From a virus: a DNA stretch of 64,000 nucleotides. The translations under genes were made by a program, and so were the position numbers. Shown in pieces: positions 5,478-17,773 of the stretch (the first letter of the stretch is position 1; the number at the start of each line of letters is the position of its first letter). The stretch is from positions 1 through 64,000 of the IMG/VR virus record IMGVR_UViG_3300025146_000011. One strand, 5' to 3'. The notes under the pieces were generated by a model, which saw nothing but the letters and a program-made list of their open reading frames with translations, did not search any database and was not told the origin of the DNA.

Positions 5478-6644
5478 GTGAATACTTTACAGCTACAAGA
5501 GGTACTAAGAAAACTTATTCAGAACAGTGGTAACGGTAATCGAGTATCATTACTGATAGAAGGGGTGCATGGAATAGGGAAGTCGGCTGTTGTTGCTGAA
5601 GTCGCAAGCGAATTAGGTTATCGTTTGGCAGATTTAAGATTAGGGCAGCAAGAAGTGGCTGATTTAATAGGTATGCCTATAGTTAAAGACGGTTATACCT
5701 ATTGGGCTCCCCCAAGTTGGTGGCCTAAAGAGGGCGAGAAAGTTGTTATCTTTTTAGATGAATTAAATCGTGGTACCCAGGATGTAAAACAAGCTATCTT
5801 TCAATTAGTGAGAGATTTCAAATTACATACACATACATTGCCTCTAGATTGTATTGTTGTCTCAGCTATAAATCCTGAGATAGATGGATATGATGTATCT
5901 CCATTAGATATAGCGTTGCAAGATAGGTTCTGGAAAGTAATATATGAACCAACAGTTGAAGAGTGGTTGAGTTGGGCAGAGAAAAATAATATATGCAAAT
6001 CTGTCTGCGAATTTATTAAGCAAGATAATATATATCTTGACCCAAGTAAGGGGCAAGCCTATCCAACTCGTAGAGGTTGGGAACGCTTAAGCAATGCACT
6101 TAAGTTAGTTGAGTTGGATAAATTCATTGAGAAGAAAGATTATGATTTATTTCTAGATATTGCTATGGGCAATATCGGTGAGGCTGGTGGACTATCATAT
6201 AAGAGATTTGTTATTGACAAATACCAACCATTAGATTCTAAACTTCTTGTAGAAAACTATAAAAAAATTCGCACTAAAATTCAGAAGCTTATTCAAAACC
6301 AACAGATGGATGTATTGTCTCGTGGATTAGATGACACGGCTAGGTATCTTGACAAGTATATAGACTCTAACATTACTCAGTCTAGCTTTGTCGAGAGTAT
6401 ATGTTTATTAATAATAGATCTTCCTCTTGATTTAGTTGTAAGTTTTATGAGAGCAATAGGTTGTAACCAAAGATTGTTTAATCTGTTTAAATTAATATGT
6501 AGAAATAAAGAAGTGTTTAGTCAAGTGGTTAGGACAAGAGATGTTGCTAACGAACATCATCTGATAGATATCTTTGATACACTACTTGAACAAGAGTTGG
6601 AGTTGGAAGAGAAAGAAAAGAAGAAGGCAACAGCAAGTGTCTAA
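5478..6644 (+). CDS. MoxR-type AAA+ ATPase
   Basis: 388 residues, GTG start. Walker A is GVHGIGKS (29-36), Walker B is VVIFLDELNRG (about 93-103), and the sensor-like segment reads VVSAINPEIDGYDVSPLD followed by QDRFW, as in MoxR ATPases. MoxR proteins act as chaperones that load or activate partner proteins with VWA domains. The next gene, overlapping by 8 bases, is exactly such a partner. The pair probably remodels a protein or metal centre; the target is unknown. Confidence 0.85.
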   Translation: MNTLQLQEVLRKLIQNSGNGNRVSLLIEGVHGIGKSAVVAEVASELGYRLADLRLGQQEVADLIGMPIVKDGYTYWAPPSWWPKEGEKVVIFLDELNRGTQDVKQAIFQLVRDFKLHTHTLPLDCIVVSAINPEIDGYDVSPLDIALQDRFWKVIYEPTVEEWLSWAEKNNICKSVCEFIKQDNIYLDPSKGQAYPTRRGWERLSNALKLVELDKFIEKKDYDLFLDIAMGNIGEAGGLSYKRFVIDKYQPLDSKLLVENYKKIRTKIQKLIQNQQMDVLSRGLDDTARYLDKYIDSNITQSSFVESICLLIIDLPLDLVVSFMRAIGCNQRLFNLFKLICRNKEVFSQVVRTRDVANEHHLIDIFDTLLEQELELEEKEKKKATASV

Positions 6645-7914
6645 TGATATTGCTGATAATGGTATTGCTAGTGTAGATAAAAAAGAACTACCCAAGTGGG
6701 CTAGTGGGGAAGATGCGAGTCCTGTAGAGTATAAAAAAGCAGAACAGGTATTTGCTAGCGCTCTTGCTTCCATGATAATTGCAGGAGATAAAGCATTATA
6801 TGCTTATCTTCTTATGCGGTTTAAGCGTATCTTTAGCACCAAAAACGTCCCAACAATGGGTGTAGGTATGAGTGCGACAAGTCTGATATTATGTATTAAT
6901 CCACATTATGTCTTATCGCTTAATCAGAATCAGATACAGACAGTCTTAGAACATGAATTTCTACACATAATAATGATGCATCCAATAAGAACACCCATTG
7001 TCTTAGAGCATACTTTATGGAATATTGCTTGTGATATTGTGGTTAATGAGTTTATGGAATCTAACTTTTTAGAAAAAGAAAATATAACTTATGATGGATT
7101 TCTTGAGCAGTATCATGACTTTCCTTCTAGGTTTAGTTCTGCAAATGTTTACTATCAATTCTTACGTCAGAAAATAGAGCAAGATGGAGAATTAAAAATG
7201 CCTGGTGGAGGGAAAGCTGAGGTAAAGATGATAGATGACCATAGCATGTGGGGTACTCCAGATGAAGAAGACATGGCTGATTATAAAGATATAAGTAAAA
7301 AATACTATGAAGGTATAATAAAAGGTGAGCTCCAAGAAGCTTATATTAAAACACAAGGGAAACTGCCAGGACAAATTAAATCTCTTATTAGAAGAATATT
7401 AAATAGTGAAGTACCTTGGAATGTAGTTCTTCGTAGATTTGTAACTAGCACACGCAATAATACCAGGCGTTATACGCTCAAACGTTATAATCGTAGGTTA
7501 CAGCTACCGCCAGGATATTGCAGGGAGCGTAAGCTCAACCTGTGTGCTATTATAGATACATCTGGATCGATAAACAATAAGCAATTATCAGCTTTCCTAA
7601 ACGAGCTCAATACTATATCAAGATATAAAAGTACAGAACTAACCATTATAGAATCAGATGCAAGGGTTGGAGCTGTATATAAGTTCAAACGTAAAGAAGT
7701 TCATGAATTTACAGGTAGGGGAGGTACTGATTTTAGACCTGCATTTGATTACATAGCCGAAAAGAGATTATCTTTTGATGGTGTAGTTTATTTTACAGAT
7801 GGTTGTGGTACTGCACCACAAGATAAACCCAAGTTCCCCGTACTATGGGTATATACTAAAGATCATGATAGAGCTGCTCCTTGGGGTAGTAGTGTGATTA
7901 TGCAGGGTACTTAA
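6637..7914 (+). CDS. DUF2201-like metallopeptidase/VWA protein
   Basis: 425 residues from GTG 6637 (AAGG nine bases upstream, overlapping moxR by 8 bases). An N-terminal zincin-like domain holds HEFLH (about 106-110) followed by a third His and by WNIACDIVVNE, characteristic of the bacterial DUF2201 family. The C-terminal VWA-like domain has the metal-binding DTSGS motif (about 307-311) and GGTDFRP. With the MoxR ATPase upstream it forms the MoxR/VWA-metallopeptidase pair known in bacteria and some large phages. An in-frame LLGI-like tail follows its TAA. Confidence 0.85.
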   Translation: MSNDIADNGIASVDKKELPKWASGEDASPVEYKKAEQVFASALASMIIAGDKALYAYLLMRFKRIFSTKNVPTMGVGMSATSLILCINPHYVLSLNQNQIQTVLEHEFLHIIMMHPIRTPIVLEHTLWNIACDIVVNEFMESNFLEKENITYDGFLEQYHDFPSRFSSANVYYQFLRQKIEQDGELKMPGGGKAEVKMIDDHSMWGTPDEEDMADYKDISKKYYEGIIKGELQEAYIKTQGKLPGQIKSLIRRILNSEVPWNVVLRRFVTSTRNNTRRYTLKRYNRRLQLPPGYCRERKLNLCAIIDTSGSINNKQLSAFLNELNTISRYKSTELTIIESDARVGAVYKFKRKEVHEFTGRGGTDFRPAFDYIAEKRLSFDGVVYFTDGCGTAPQDKPKFPVLWVYTKDHDRAAPWGSSVIMQGT

Positions 7915-11323: not shown

Positions 11324-11560
11324 ATGAATATCAATGACTTTAATGAAGTAGGAAAGATTCTCATAAATGGAGAGGTAATTTCTTATGACGGGAGCATGTC
11401 CCTTTTAGAGGCTTTAAAACAAGCTCTAAAAACTAGGAATATTACTACCGTAGACGTAATCCTTAATGGTCGTGAAATAGTTAATAAGAATGAGCTGCCT
11501 CTTGACCTAGCACACGATGATGTCCTAGAATTGAGAACATATGCTAAACCTGGAAGATAA
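11324..11560 (+). CDS. ubiquitin-like (ThiS/MoaD/PRTRC-C-like) protein
   Basis: 78 residues, AAGGAGAAG upstream. The pattern is a beta-grasp fold: strand KILINGEVISYD, helix SLLEALKQALKT, strand TTVDVILNGREIV, then the typical loop LDLAHDDVLEL and a last strand RTYAKPGR. The C-terminus is KPGR rather than GG, so either a single Gly is exposed after trimming or the protein is not conjugated in the classical way. It overlaps the E2-like gene by 20 bases, and E1 and JAB genes follow. This order suggests a Ubl-modifier system like PRTRC. Confidence 0.75.
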   Translation: MNINDFNEVGKILINGEVISYDGSMSLLEALKQALKTRNITTVDVILNGREIVNKNELPLDLAHDDVLELRTYAKPGR

Positions 11561-12158
11561 TGAAGTAGAAACGCTCTATGCTATTGTACAAGAGCAGGAA
11601 AAACAAGACAGATATGATATAGAAAGCGGTCTTGCGACGCACAATACATGTTTGAGAGTCTTAAATAATCACATCACAAACACAATAACACTACCTCAAC
11701 CTGGTATATACCAGGTTGAGGATAGCCAGATCTACTCAATAGCATTTGGAAACTTTTCTATTAAAAAAATATATCATAATAATGTAACCTGGAACATTCC
11801 AGTTCATATGCAAGAAACAGTACCACTCATGATAATATATGAGCCACCAGTAAGCATACGGCTTTTGCCTATTCCAGGCATTACACCAGATAATTGGAAA
11901 GAGTATTTTCCGCCTTTTCATTATGATAAAGATACCAATCAGGTTTGCTTTGGAAGCACTGTCTTTACAACAAAGCCTGAAAACTTACAAAACAGAGTTT
12001 CTGACATAGAAAATATTTTAAGTATCTATAATACAGATAGCGCACATACTCTTAGGGATGATTGCGATTTATCATCTAGTTGGACACAAATATTAGATGA
12101 TCTAAGAAATATATCTTTAGGAAGTATTCCTAAGTTTCTTACAGCAGTCTTAATTTAA
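11541..12158 (+). CDS. E2-like protein (PRTRC-B / Prok-E2 family D-like)
   Basis: 205 residues, ATG inside the end of the Ubl gene. The core resembles PRTRC system protein B: a run of prolines (IRLLPIPGITPD, about 107-117) followed by FPPFHYDKDTNQVCFGS (123-139). Cys136 in the VCFGS motif is the candidate active-site cysteine. In known systems this protein would take the modifier from the E1 and pass it on. Assignment rests on motif pattern and gene order. It contains a perfect 28-bp palindrome (11694-11721). Confidence 0.6.
   Translation: MLNLEDNEVETLYAIVQEQEKQDRYDIESGLATHNTCLRVLNNHITNTITLPQPGIYQVEDSQIYSIAFGNFSIKKIYHNNVTWNIPVHMQETVPLMIIYEPPVSIRLLPIPGITPDNWKEYFPPFHYDKDTNQVCFGSTVFTTKPENLQNRVSDIENILSIYNTDSAHTLRDDCDLSSSWTQILDDLRNISLGSIPKFLTAVLI
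11694..11721. repeat. 28-bp perfect palindrome inside the E2-like gene
   Basis: Two 14-base arms, starting CCTCAACCTGGTAT, meet with no spacer. It codes for LPQPGIYQVE and also can form a hairpin in the mRNA. It could be a protein binding site or an mRNA processing or attenuation site. Confidence 0.8.
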
Positions 12159-12170
12159 GGAGGCTAAACC

Positions 12171-13109
12171 ATGGTAAAAACAACAAACATAACAATAATA
12201 GGATGTGGAGGTGTTGGATCGTGGATTGCTTACTTTCTTGCATTAGCTTCGAAAGATTCACATTTTTCTAGTATTAATAACCTAACTCTTATTGATTATG
12301 ATACATTAGAAGACAATAATCTTACAAGATTACCTACAACACATACTGATAGAAACACAAAAAAAGTAACATATCTTAGCAAGACCATTTACGATACAAA
12401 ACCTGCATTTACAATAAACGTTATGTCTAGTGCTTTATCTAGTGATAACATTAGTGTTTTATTAAATGATACTACACATGTATTTTGTGCTACTGATACT
12501 GTAGATATTCAGAGATTAGTTAGAACTTACTGTCAAGACAATCGAATAAAATATCAACGCGCTGGATATGACGGTGATTGGATTACAATTACAAGAGGTA
12601 TACCAATAACCTTTGATCCCCAGCAAGAACATCAAGAAGGAACTGACTACAGCGATAAACCAAAGGTTTATCAAGCTGCTCTTGCTGGATTACTTGCTGT
12701 ATACTCTATGTTTGAGAATGAGGTTTCTATATCTGCTCCAATGAGTACTTTAACTGCGTTTAATTCCTCCTTAATACCGAAAACAATATTAAATAAGATA
12801 AAAGATGATGTTAAGGATGAGATACTTGATGATGGTGATTACCATGGCAGTGATGACTGTAACCATGAAGATTGTTGGGTATTTGATGACGCAATAGATA
12901 GCTACTTAGACAATATAGATATTGATAGTTTGCCAAGTAGAGTTCAAGATGTTGTTGATAAATATATAGAACGTATGGATAAACATGATGTTCCACAAAA
13001 TCTCATAGACGATATTATTGAAGATTTTAAAGACGAGATGACTGAAGACGATATTCCTAATGAACTAATAAGAGAACTTAAAATTAATTTTACAACATCG
13101 GAGGATTAA
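12171..13109 (+). CDS. ThiF/E1-like adenylating enzyme
   Basis: 312 residues, AAGGAGG upstream. The Rossmann ATP-binding motif is GCGGVGS (11-17); LIDYDTLEDNNLTR (40-53) carries the acidic and Asn/Arg residues of E1/ThiF active sites, followed by a Lys pair (64-65) and FCATDTVDIQ. These enzymes adenylate the C-terminus of a ubiquitin-like protein. The C-terminal 90 residues are unusually acidic and contain CNHEDC, perhaps a small metal site or partner-binding tail. It lies between the E2-like and JAB genes. Confidence 0.85.
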   Translation: MVKTTNITIIGCGGVGSWIAYFLALASKDSHFSSINNLTLIDYDTLEDNNLTRLPTTHTDRNTKKVTYLSKTIYDTKPAFTINVMSSALSSDNISVLLNDTTHVFCATDTVDIQRLVRTYCQDNRIKYQRAGYDGDWITITRGIPITFDPQQEHQEGTDYSDKPKVYQAALAGLLAVYSMFENEVSISAPMSTLTAFNSSLIPKTILNKIKDDVKDEILDDGDYHGSDDCNHEDCWVFDDAIDSYLDNIDIDSLPSRVQDVVDKYIERMDKHDVPQNLIDDIIEDFKDEMTEDDIPNELIRELKINFTTSED

Positions 13110-13112
13110 TTT

Positions 13113-13967
13113 ATGATGACATTAGCTACAAAACCATGTATAAGTTGTGACTGGGTATCTGCTCAGAGTGATGTACTATATTTCTCAATGAAACTATGGG
13201 AGAAATGGGTATACGCCACTAAGGTTTATCCAGACTTAGAGCTACTTGCTTTATTTAAAGTAAATAAATCCCGTGAAATTACCGAACTAGTATTTCCAGA
13301 ACAGGAAATTGCAGTTGCAGATTGCTTATTAAAAGAACAAAAAGGGCAGTGGGATGGAATGATACATTCTCATCATACTATGTCCGCTAAATTTTCCAGT
13401 ATGGACTATGATACTGTTTTACCTAATTACAAATTTGCCATAGTAACTAATCATATGGGGAATATAGAAGCAACTGAACAGGTAGACTTGCCTTGCGGAG
13501 GCAAGGGATATAAGAAAATAAATATAATTATTAGTCCAGCATTTGTTGATAGCGAACAAATAAGGTCAGTTATACTAAGAACCGTTAGTGTAAAACCTCA
13601 AACTACGTTTGCCTATGAGCGTATAGAAGATTATAGTTTCCCGCAAAACCACGATGTCCCCTGGAAAAATGACTTATTTGATAGTTACACAGAAAAATCC
13701 AATATTCCAGATCAGGTTGTTAATTTAGCTGAACACCTTCTTTATGATAAGCAACACAAGATAAATAAATATATTGCTGTACTAAGCAAGCTTAGCGATA
13801 ATAGCTTAACTGGTATACAGTTGTCTCTAATGGCATCCACCACAGATAATCAACTTATTCTAGATAAATTAGAAGACATTGATTGTATTAACAATATAAA
13901 TGGATACACATATATTACCGAGTCGGGACTTGATCTCCTAGATTATCTAAGTAGTACTACTATATAG
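13113..13967 (+). CDS. JAB/JAMM-domain isopeptidase (PRTRC-A-like)
   Basis: 284 residues, GGAGG upstream, three bases after the E1 gene. A full JAMM metal motif is present: Glu43 (LELLALF) as the likely catalytic acid, then HSHHTMSAKFSSMD with His85, His87, Ser95 and Asp98. JAMM proteases remove or trim ubiquitin-like modifiers. The C-terminal 100 residues are helical and look like a separate small domain. Last gene of the cassette; a promoter for the next unit starts three bases after its stop. Confidence 0.85.
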   Translation: MMTLATKPCISCDWVSAQSDVLYFSMKLWEKWVYATKVYPDLELLALFKVNKSREITELVFPEQEIAVADCLLKEQKGQWDGMIHSHHTMSAKFSSMDYDTVLPNYKFAIVTNHMGNIEATEQVDLPCGGKGYKKINIIISPAFVDSEQIRSVILRTVSVKPQTTFAYERIEDYSFPQNHDVPWKNDLFDSYTEKSNIPDQVVNLAEHLLYDKQHKINKYIAVLSKLSDNSLTGIQLSLMASTTDNQLILDKLEDIDCINNINGYTYITESGLDLLDYLSSTTI

Positions 13968-14026: not shown

Positions 14027-14248
14027 ATGAAAGTAATTACACAAGGTAAGAGTAGGTTTTGGGAAGGTAGACAATTTACTTGTCCTGATTGTAATGTGTC
14101 TTTTGTTTTAGAACTTAAAGATTGGGGTTATTTCATGTATCGTCATAAACTAAACAAAGAATGTTGTATAAGTATACATTGTACAAGCTGCTATAGTATT
14201 ATTCCATTAAACTTAAAACAAGGAGTATGCGATGAAACAAATACCTAA
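14027..14248 (+). CDS. zinc-ribbon protein
   Basis: 73 residues behind AAGAAAGGTAGG. CPDC (about 19-22) and CTSC (about 52-55) form a probable zinc ribbon; a further CC pair precedes the second half. First gene after a consensus promoter, overlapping a second zinc-ribbon gene by 17 bases. Confidence 0.7.
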   Translation: MKVITQGKSRFWEGRQFTCPDCNVSFVLELKDWGYFMYRHKLNKECCISIHCTSCYSIIPLNLKQGVCDETNT

Positions 14249-14411
14249 TGGTGTTTCGTTATTTGAGTTTGCAGAAATAGGAAATAAACTAACCTGCACT
14301 AATTGTGAGGCAGTATTAGAATTGGAACGTCTTGATGTTGTTGACATAAAACTAAAGAGATTTACTATGTGTTCAGAGTGTAATCATAGAATAGAAGACG
14401 TACGTATTTAG
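14232..14411 (+). CDS. zinc-ribbon protein
   Basis: 59 residues, ATG six bases after AAGGAG. CTNC (24-27) and CSEC (about 48-51) make a four-cysteine zinc ribbon, spaced like the preceding protein, so the two may be paralogues. Its stop is followed at once by another consensus promoter. Confidence 0.7.
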   Translation: MKQIPNGVSLFEFAEIGNKLTCTNCEAVLELERLDVVDIKLKRFTMCSECNHRIEDVRI

Positions 14412-16092: not shown

Positions 16093-16608
16093 ATGAATTA
16101 TTATAAAGCCCCATTCTGGCGTAGATTTGAAATAATGGGTGATTGGTCTGAAGCGGCTATAGTTGAGTATTGTAATCAACACAACTATAAATATACCCCT
16201 TTTGGATTCAACCGTCCTAATATTACATTCCGAAAACTTCCTGGTTTTCTTCAACATATGCCAGATTTTATAGTTGAGGGATTTAACAAGGAATTGGTGT
16301 TTGTAGAGGGCAAGGGCGTAGGGAGAGATGGAATTGTTAAGATTAAACAACAAGATATAGACATATTATCTGAATGGCAACAAAGAATGCCCGTATACTT
16401 TAGTATATATCACTCTAATAAAAGTAAGATATGTTTTGGCATACCATTGAATGAGGTAGTTGGTTTATGTAATAAATCCGAATCTGCTTGCTTTCCAGAT
16501 AACAATAAGTTATATTATAAATTACCTATCAAACAGTTTGCTTGGGAATGTATTACAAATGTACATTCACTAACCTTACCGCAACAGGAGGACCCAAATG
16601 GGTATTGA
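16093..16608 (+). CDS. PD-(D/E)XK nuclease-fold protein
   Basis: 171 residues. MPDFIVEGFN followed by LVFVEGKG (about 56-76) fits the PD...(D/E)XK metal-binding core of restriction-like nucleases, then an alpha-helix with IKQQDIDILSEW. It overlaps a AAA+ ATPase gene by 11 bases, so the two probably form a nuclease/ATPase pair. The role, in DNA processing or in defence against competing DNA, is open. Confidence 0.6.
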   Translation: MNYYKAPFWRRFEIMGDWSEAAIVEYCNQHNYKYTPFGFNRPNITFRKLPGFLQHMPDFIVEGFNKELVFVEGKGVGRDGIVKIKQQDIDILSEWQQRMPVYFSIYHSNKSKICFGIPLNEVVGLCNKSESACFPDNNKLYYKLPIKQFAWECITNVHSLTLPQQEDPNGY

Positions 16609-17773
16609 TTATACAATAGATATTTCTCAAATGTATGAGAGGAGATATATTAGTGCTCTCTTTTGGCAAAGAGTAATGAGTGAGCAATTAACCATAGTTA
16701 AATCGATCCATCGAGTATCTAGTCAACCTTTAAAATCCTTCCTAGAAGGAGTTGGTGGAAAGATACTCGCGTGTTTTCAAGGGAAAAGAACTTGTAGGTC
16801 GCTGGTCTCTATTAATAACGCTCTTCTAGAACTAGACTTAGACATAGAGGAGGGTGGTAATACCTATTCTATAACATTAGCTGGACCAGACAATGCAATA
16901 GTTGAAGCAACAGAAAAGACAATAATAAACATATTACCAATACTGGAAAACGATGATCCATCTAAGATATCTATGTCATTTTGTTATTTTAGCGAATCAG
17001 GTGGTACCAACAATAGATTACGCAAGATAGAAGCTCCAACATGGGAACAAATTCAGGGTAACTATCCCCATACGGTAAGAGAGAAGTTGGATTTGCTTAT
17101 TGCAACAGCACAACCAACCACCAGTGGCAAAATGATCTTATTGCATGGGGTGCCTGGTACAGGCAAAACACATGCAATAAGATCGTTAGTGCGGCAGTGG
17201 GCACCATGGTGTAAGTCATCATATATTGTTGATCCAGAATCATTTTTTGGCAGTCCATCGTATATGTTTGAGATGGTATTAGACAGCGAGCATTCTGATG
17301 GAAATATATTTGAAGATATAGAACTTGAAGATATAGAACTTGAAGATATGGGTGCTCATCTAAAAGAGCGCCTATCAGATAAGACAGAAAAGAAATGGAC
17401 ATTATTTATAGTAGAAGATGTGGATGAATTAATCTCATCTGATGCCAAGAAGCGTACAGGCCAAAATCTATCTAGACTTCTTAATCTAGTGGACGGATTA
17501 GTTGGTCAAGGACTACATATTATATTTTTGATGACAACAAATGAACCTATGAGCAAAATACATCCAGCCCTATCACGTCCAGGAAGGTGTCTAGCAAACA
17601 TAGAATTTACACCCCTAACCGTAGATGAATCCATAGAGTGGTGCAGGCAACGAGAACTTAATTACAATGATATAAAGAAGCCGCAAACCATAGCTGAATT
17701 ATATAGTAAGCTTAATAATAAACCAGTAATAGAAGTAGAACAACAAAAGAAACGTATGGGCTTTAGGGATTAG
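16598..17773 (+). CDS. BCS1-like AAA+ ATPase
   Basis: 391 residues. Walker A GVPGTGKT (about 185-192), Walker B LFIVEDVDEL (about 269-278), sensor 1 MTTNEP and the arginine-finger segment PALSRPGRC. The arrangement with a strand-rich N-terminal domain is like BCS1-type ATPases. A tandem DNA repeat near 17310-17350 codes for EDIELEDIELEDM, an acidic insertion. Partner of the nuclease-fold protein upstream. Confidence 0.8.
   Translation: MGIDYTIDISQMYERRYISALFWQRVMSEQLTIVKSIHRVSSQPLKSFLEGVGGKILACFQGKRTCRSLVSINNALLELDLDIEEGGNTYSITLAGPDNAIVEATEKTIINILPILENDDPSKISMSFCYFSESGGTNNRLRKIEAPTWEQIQGNYPHTVREKLDLLIATAQPTTSGKMILLHGVPGTGKTHAIRSLVRQWAPWCKSSYIVDPESFFGSPSYMFEMVLDSEHSDGNIFEDIELEDIELEDMGAHLKERLSDKTEKKWTLFIVEDVDELISSDAKKRTGQNLSRLLNLVDGLVGQGLHIIFLMTTNEPMSKIHPALSRPGRCLANIEFTPLTVDESIEWCRQRELNYNDIKKPQTIAELYSKLNNKPVIEVEQQKKRMGFRD

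Follow-up and report, generated by a model that had tools for sequence, protein, structure and literature searches.

Bil systems (BilABCD) unite four functions, a ubiquitin-like modifier (Ubl), an E2, a DUB and an E1, in one operon. Prokaryotic Ubl conjugation has so far been known chiefly from plasmids and from host anti-phage defence; its chemistry is established, and operons of such parts have been reported from plasmids, other prokaryotic loci and phage defence (PMC1779556, PMC10097602). In CBASS, E1 and E2 are fused in Cap2, and the modifier is the CD-NTase (PMC10097602). Here we describe a cassette of adjacent Ubl, E2-like, E1 and JAMM isopeptidase (JAB) genes in a phage. On the basis of sequence comparison and structure modeling, we consider it likely that the cassette encodes a self-contained, reversible Ubl-conjugation system predicted to act in the infected cell. 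A complete conjugation-deconjugation set in phages would mean that phages use this chemistry too.

The stretch of DNA that was analyzed (the window, 64 kb) is part of a virus record of 161,400 bases that encodes Pol III alpha, a UvrD-type helicase, ribonucleotide reductase (RNR) and RNA ligase, with terminase, portal and contractile tail sheath genes present outside the window. The combination of Pol III alpha, RNR and RNA ligase with terminase, portal and tail sheath identifies the record as that of a phage. Among named phages, Moorella phage MTATph1 has the closest terminase (36%), and at the DNA level no similarity to phages was found beyond a short match within the Rad52-like gene. The cassette occupies positions 11324-13967 and consists of four tandem open reading frames (Table 1), which lie exactly where the initial annotation had placed a run of adjoining genes with overlaps or short gaps: the Ubl and E2 frames overlap by 20 nt, and gaps of 12 nt and 3 nt separate E2 from E1 and E1 from JAB, respectively. 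Shine-Dalgarno-like sequences precede the starts of the Ubl (AGAAGGAG), E1 (TAAGGAGG) and JAB (GGAGG) genes; the start of the E2 gene is weak and sits within the Ubl gene, to which its translation is probably coupled. The neighbors of the cassette encode a Rad52-like SSAP, an AAA ATPase and Pol III alpha, and no second Ubl or JAB was found in the 161,400-base record. Two small zinc-ribbon-like proteins are encoded immediately 3' of the JAB gene (14027-14408), and further downstream, about 2.6 kb from the cassette (16598-17773), lies the gene of an AAA+ ATPase that strongly matches phrog_33861. Elsewhere in the window (5478-7914), a phage module pairs a MoxR-type AAA ATPase (phrog_1297) with a VWA/metallopeptidase-like protein (DUF2201) encoded after it.

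Table 1. Features of the phage cassette, with positions in the window and the evidence for each.
Feature	Position	Strand	Evidence
Ubl, 78 aa	11324..11560	+	Profile, AlphaFold, Foldseek
E2-like protein (UBC), 205 aa	11541..12158	+	Conserved C136, window-free HMM, family profile
Predicted E2 catalytic cysteine C136 codon (VCFGS)	11946..11948	+	Two alignments
E1/ThiF-type adenylating enzyme, 312 aa	12171..13109	+	PF00899, leave-window-out profile, tree
JAMM/JAB isopeptidase, 284 aa	13113..13967	+	Invariant JAMM residues, leave-window-out profile
Isopeptidase JAMM motif (metal binding), HSHHTMSAKFSSMD	13365..13406	+	Sequence and alignment

The components were assigned with leave-window-out profiles, which were built solely from proteins of other phages and scored against the 260 open reading frames of the window. 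The Ubl profile recovers the 78-residue protein with an E-value of 2.3e-8 (next frame, 0.58). Its AlphaFold model (pLDDT 81) is a beta-grasp with the order strand-strand-helix-strand-strand-strand, similar to ThiS and SUMO, and a Foldseek search of the PDB with this model returned ThiS, SUMO, SAMP, ubiquitin and Urm1 (best E-value 2e-3). The beta-grasp modifier proposed in the initial annotation is thus strongly supported by both profile and structure search. Scans of curated libraries with the Ubl gave no significant match, ThiS remaining below the cut-off at 0.028. The protein ends in ...ELRTYAKPGR, that is, in a glycine followed by one residue, which would therefore need to be trimmed to expose the glycine; several sister Ubls end exactly in G and others have no C-terminal glycine. 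We count the GR ending, together with the sister Ubls that have no terminal glycine, against the conjugation reading.

The E2-like protein contains the active-site region PPFHYDKDTNQVCFGS with an NTDSA motif downstream. In an alignment of 18 E2 proteins C136 is the sole invariant residue, and S167 is conserved in at least 90%. A full-length leave-window-out E2 HMM missed the window protein among the 260 frames; when the window-free HMM was trimmed to the UBC region, the protein ranked first of 260 with an E-value of 0.0033 (0.42 for the runner-up). The alignment placed its cysteine and N-x-D-S in register, and only one of 5,000 shuffled versions of the protein reached its score. The profile of the 18-protein family matches human UBE2C (4.5e-8) and other E2s across HPN...C...N-x-D-S-P-L. 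Single-sequence scans of curated libraries yielded no significant match, and the AlphaFold model (pLDDT 61) is too poor for a fold search and gave no E2 match. Textbook HPN...C motifs occur in E2s of sister cassettes (YHPNCRGQSVCIG in L126, YHPNISDSGLVCLG in L101 and LHPNVSMNGKVCAG in L044), and the top-scoring frames outside the set of complete cassettes adjoin E1 or JAB genes, most of them with HPx...CxG or a sequence close to it. Of the four assignments, that of the E2 is the weakest; the window protein is divergent, and the searches returned no relative of close identity to it. On the strength of its motif, gene position and modest profile score, the E2 identity of the 205-residue protein, as originally suggested, is likely, not proven; C136, the trimmed-profile score and the UBE2C match lend it moderate support, against the poor model, which does not speak for an unrelated fold either.

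Tryptophans recur near the termini of several components. Eleven of 17 E2s from complete cassettes have a tryptophan within the last six residues (background 7%, p 1.5e-9; those listed are L020, L022, L025, L033, L044, L086, L087, L089, L124 and L126), as do 10 of 17 Ubls within residues 2-12 (p 5e-4); near-terminal tryptophans are found in 7 of 16 JABs (p 0.03) and in none of the E1s. Both the Ubl and the E2 of the window are without one. The recurrent tryptophan could serve for docking onto the E1.

The 312-residue protein matches the ThiF family (PF00899, 1.2e-19) and is recovered by the leave-window-out E1 profile at 1.1e-37 (next frame, 0.01). It consists of a catalytic domain (residues ~1-200) and an acidic C-terminal extension of ~100 residues. 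Across 18 E1s of the family, G11, G13, G14, G16, D44, N50, R53, K65 and D109 are invariant, and the ATP/Mg adenylation residues D44, N50, R53, K65 and D109 are thus intact in the window protein. No conserved cysteine exists beyond the GCGG loop in these 18 proteins, and in one of them (L020) the loop cysteine is the only cysteine. The C-terminal extension of the window E1 holds two cysteines, C230 and C235, which could serve as the catalytic cysteine instead. Fifteen of the 18 E1s have an N-terminal arginine that is missing from the window E1, an absence that we also count against conjugation. In the PDB, the family profile matches TcdA, ThiF and E1s of eukaryotes. In the phylogenetic tree the window E1 falls within a viral clade (support 100/99) with the E1s of other complete cassettes, apart from the PRTRC E1s (100/99), MoeB, TcdA and several other viral clades; its position inside the clade is unsure because its row is long. 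Rather than a plain molybdopterin or thiamine enzyme, the protein is therefore a member of a clade of viral E1s encoded beside E2 and JAB genes, and the E1 of the initial annotation stands.

These features bear on an alternative in which the ThiS-like protein, the E1 and the JAB would make a thiocarboxylate for sulfur transfer to a cofactor, an amino acid or tRNA. ThiS is the best curated match of the Ubl outside chance level, operons of Ubl, JAB and E1 for sulfur assimilation are known (PMC1779556), and an E1 family that has no conserved cysteine is compatible with a MoeB-type mechanism. However, none of the annotated neighbors was recognized as encoding a sulfurtransferase or a cysteine-synthase-like protein, the gene between Ubl and E1 codes for an E2-like protein whose cysteine is invariant, and the E1 is separate from MoeB and TcdA in the tree; we regard a sulfur carrier as very improbable.

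The isopeptidase of the initial annotation is strongly supported by intact catalytic residues and by the leave-window-out profile (8.6e-26; next frame, 0.64). Residues E43, H85, H87, S95 and D98 of the E...HxH...S..D pattern are all present and are invariant in the alignment. The Prok-JAB model matches at 0.0048, below the cut-off, and among the matches of the family profile are AMSH-like sst2 (1e-9) and an Rpn11-like protein (2.8e-6). The protein carries a C-terminal extension of ~150 residues. In two sister cassettes the JAB (L024:3246-3986 and L030:5931-6863) has a C-terminal Cys/His-rich pattern of a treble-clef (RING/PHD-like) zinc finger, possibly a fused E3 element.

When viral contigs were scanned for E1, E2 and JAB with patterns from single sequences, no relatives were returned; these were recovered only with alignment queries bearing the conserved motifs. 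An E1 alignment search of viral contigs gave 66 loci and two further searches gave 38 more, several of them on the same contigs; in nearly all E1 loci a JAMM gene lies no more than a few kb away. The full quartet of Ubl, E2, E1 and JAB is present in 18 viral contigs (L020-L025, L027, L030, L032, L033, L044, L086, L087, L089-L092 and L101, of which L089-L092 are near-copies, with the E2 of L090 split into two frames, and the E2 of L044 was identified from its motif, not by profile) and in two metagenome bins. The commonest order is Ubl-E2-E1-JAB, with rearrangements in L024, L030, L044 and L101, and the sister cassettes sit among small accessory genes. The seeds of this classification included the window, so that it cannot count as independent support for the window itself; the leave-window-out profiles and the trimmed E2 profile can. 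The same search of prokaryote genomes, taken one per species, found 47 E1 relatives, only two of which also have Ubl and JAB, namely the metagenome bins of an Ignavibacteria (L124) and a Thermoplasmata (L126) member. On the sampling used, the cassette is mainly viral; it is no one-off, as the initial annotation had proposed to check in related phages, and belongs to a widespread viral kind. In the open PMC literature, which leaves out preprints and most subscription journals, we found no recurrent phage-borne E1/E2/JAB/Ubl cassette with its own E1 clade, and such phage cassettes may already have been described outside that subset.

Among the other arrangements, one contig encodes a single 453-residue protein with an N-terminal Ubl and a C-terminal E1, followed by a JAB (L029:3410-4771), and a further viral E1-JAB arrangement is seen in L041, L057, L060, L062, L069 and L080. 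The protein encoded upstream of the pair in L041 looks TFIIB-like, which suggests that such pairs occur in archaeal viruses as well. E1 matches in Acinetobacter 'phage MD-2021a' lie among bacterial housekeeping genes; we took them for probable contamination from bacteria and left them out.

Diverged E1-JAB cassettes, with E1s of other clades, are also present in the sequenced phages Flavobacterium phage Fpv1, Dulem virus 41, crAss-like cr85_1 and Salmonella phage Arash, where they are annotated as 'thiamine biosynthesis', 'structural' or hypothetical. On visual inspection, neighboring proteins show an E2-like cysteine motif (for instance LPFPNQYGDGNMCVG in Arash Gp248); by profile, these E2 calls are not significant and no Ubl was recognized in the four phages. 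Uracil-DNA glycosylase genes lie near E1-JAB in Dulem virus 41, cr85_1 and Fpv1, with primase and exonuclease genes also nearby in the first two. The Arash cassette is encoded near virion genes, and therefore the location of a cassette does not fix its role.

The Arash proteins Gp246 (E1), Gp247 (JAB) and Gp248 (E2-like) have been detected by mass spectrometry of purified virions (PMC10585845), and tail proteins of the lambda type use a Ubl with JAB/NlpC (PMC1779556). Both facts would fit a cassette that modifies or processes the structural proteins of its own phage and may be packaged, which amounts to the conjugation mechanism with another target. For the window phage this is rather unlikely: its identified head and tail genes lie away from the cassette on the opposite strand, the Arash E1 groups in another clade, on the PRTRC side, and as Arash particles contain 116 proteins (PMC10585845), carry-over of the cassette proteins is possible.

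The occurrence of E1-JAB cassettes in distant phage lineages, and within replication regions in crAss-like phages, speaks against superinfection exclusion of a Bil-like type, a phage-carried defence in which Ubl would be put on structural proteins of incoming competitors. The parts list is that of Bil, the JAB family profile weakly matches BilC (0.023), and the small accessory genes around the sister cassettes would suit such a role; as the similarity to Bil proteins is at the fold level only, we consider it unlikely. Counter-defence, with the Ubl and the E2-like protein as decoys and the JAB removing the host's Ubl or CD-NTase from conjugates formed by Bil or by Cap2 of CBASS, would agree with the intact JAB residues and with the use of such conjugation by CBASS against phages (PMC10097602). 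It is quite unlikely, since a decoy needs no complete E1 with intact ATP-binding residues, and all parts are kept together in the 18 viral contigs.

In the phage-encoded conjugation system that we favor, the last residue of the Ubl would first be trimmed, possibly through the JAB, and the E1 would then adenylate the glycine that has become C-terminal. Outside the GCGG loop, these E1s share no catalytic cysteine, and the Ubl, once activated, would therefore probably be handed directly to C136 of the E2, which would move it onto amines of target proteins with no recognizable E3, and the JAMM protease would remove it again. The position of the cassette among early replication and recombination genes (Rad52-like SSAP, AAA ATPase, Pol III) leads us to propose, tentatively, host or phage proteins of the replication or takeover phase as the likeliest targets. 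As the same gene set recurs in many phages, some of them probably tag proteins of infected cells. A broader possibility, which we put forward with less than even confidence, is that tailed phages of several unrelated lineages, Crassvirales included, run their own Ubl conjugation during infection. This viral kind would differ from the plasmid and defence types and would be marked by single-domain E1s with no conserved catalytic cysteine, E2s that are partly of the HPN...C type and AMSH/Rpn11-like JAMMs, with the enzymes in the virion of some phages. Named phages are now available for seeking adducts and targets, and eukaryote-like HPN...C E2s next to E1s that have no conserved cysteine bear on the evolution of the E1-E2 relay.

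Of the described systems, the PRTRC plasmid cassette (operon type 6d, Iyer et al. 2006, PMC1779556; TIGR03735-03738) likewise has a small stand-alone Ubl with a terminal glycine, an E2 that retains the cysteine with a variant histidine (..VCxGS..), and JAB and E1 as separate adjacent genes. The resemblance noted in the initial annotation holds for the parts and does not extend to kinship. The PRTRC_B, ThiF, A and C models (NCBIfam) gave no match at cut-off (PRTRC_A, 0.1 only); TIGR03737 was not found in the record, whereas it was in the PRTRC plasmid; no ParB, protein E or protein F was found among the cassette-region genes examined, where the flanks encode zinc-ribbon proteins; the gene order differs, and the E1s form separate clades. 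PRTRC references were taken from p12969-DIM, Rhizobium tropici plasmids having given no match, and the PRTRC layout is present in L009-L014. An hhalign comparison of the window E2 with PRTRC_B scored 23.3 (best of 100 shuffles, 21.8), which is suggestive only, and that of the window Ubl with PRTRC_C gave nothing. Assignment to PRTRC was rejected on family match, gene content and E1 tree.

CBASS Cap2/Cap3 share the E1, E2 and JAB chemistry and a substrate ending in glycine (PMC10097602), whereas the phage cassette has separate genes and a dedicated Ubl, and its E1 starts at its own GCGG loop with the E2-like gene adjoining. With the E1 unfused to an E2 and no CD-NTase among the flanking genes scanned, we rejected CBASS type II. 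The tail assembly genes of lambda (PMC1779556) are similar in that a phage encodes a Ubl with a JAB protease, but lambda has no E1 or E2, and the cassette has no NlpC and lies outside the tail region. ThiS/ThiF, MoaD/MoeB and TcdA share the beta-grasp and adenylating folds; in contrast to them, the cassette shows no biosynthetic partners, has its E1 in a separate clade and includes an E2-like protein and a JAMM protease.

PADLOC output contained no Bil-named model. Bil and the phage cassette have the same four functions in one operon and resemble each other at the level of folds only (as in the 0.023 match of BilC noted above), whereas the cassette described here is carried by a phage and relies on an E1 family with no conserved catalytic cysteine.
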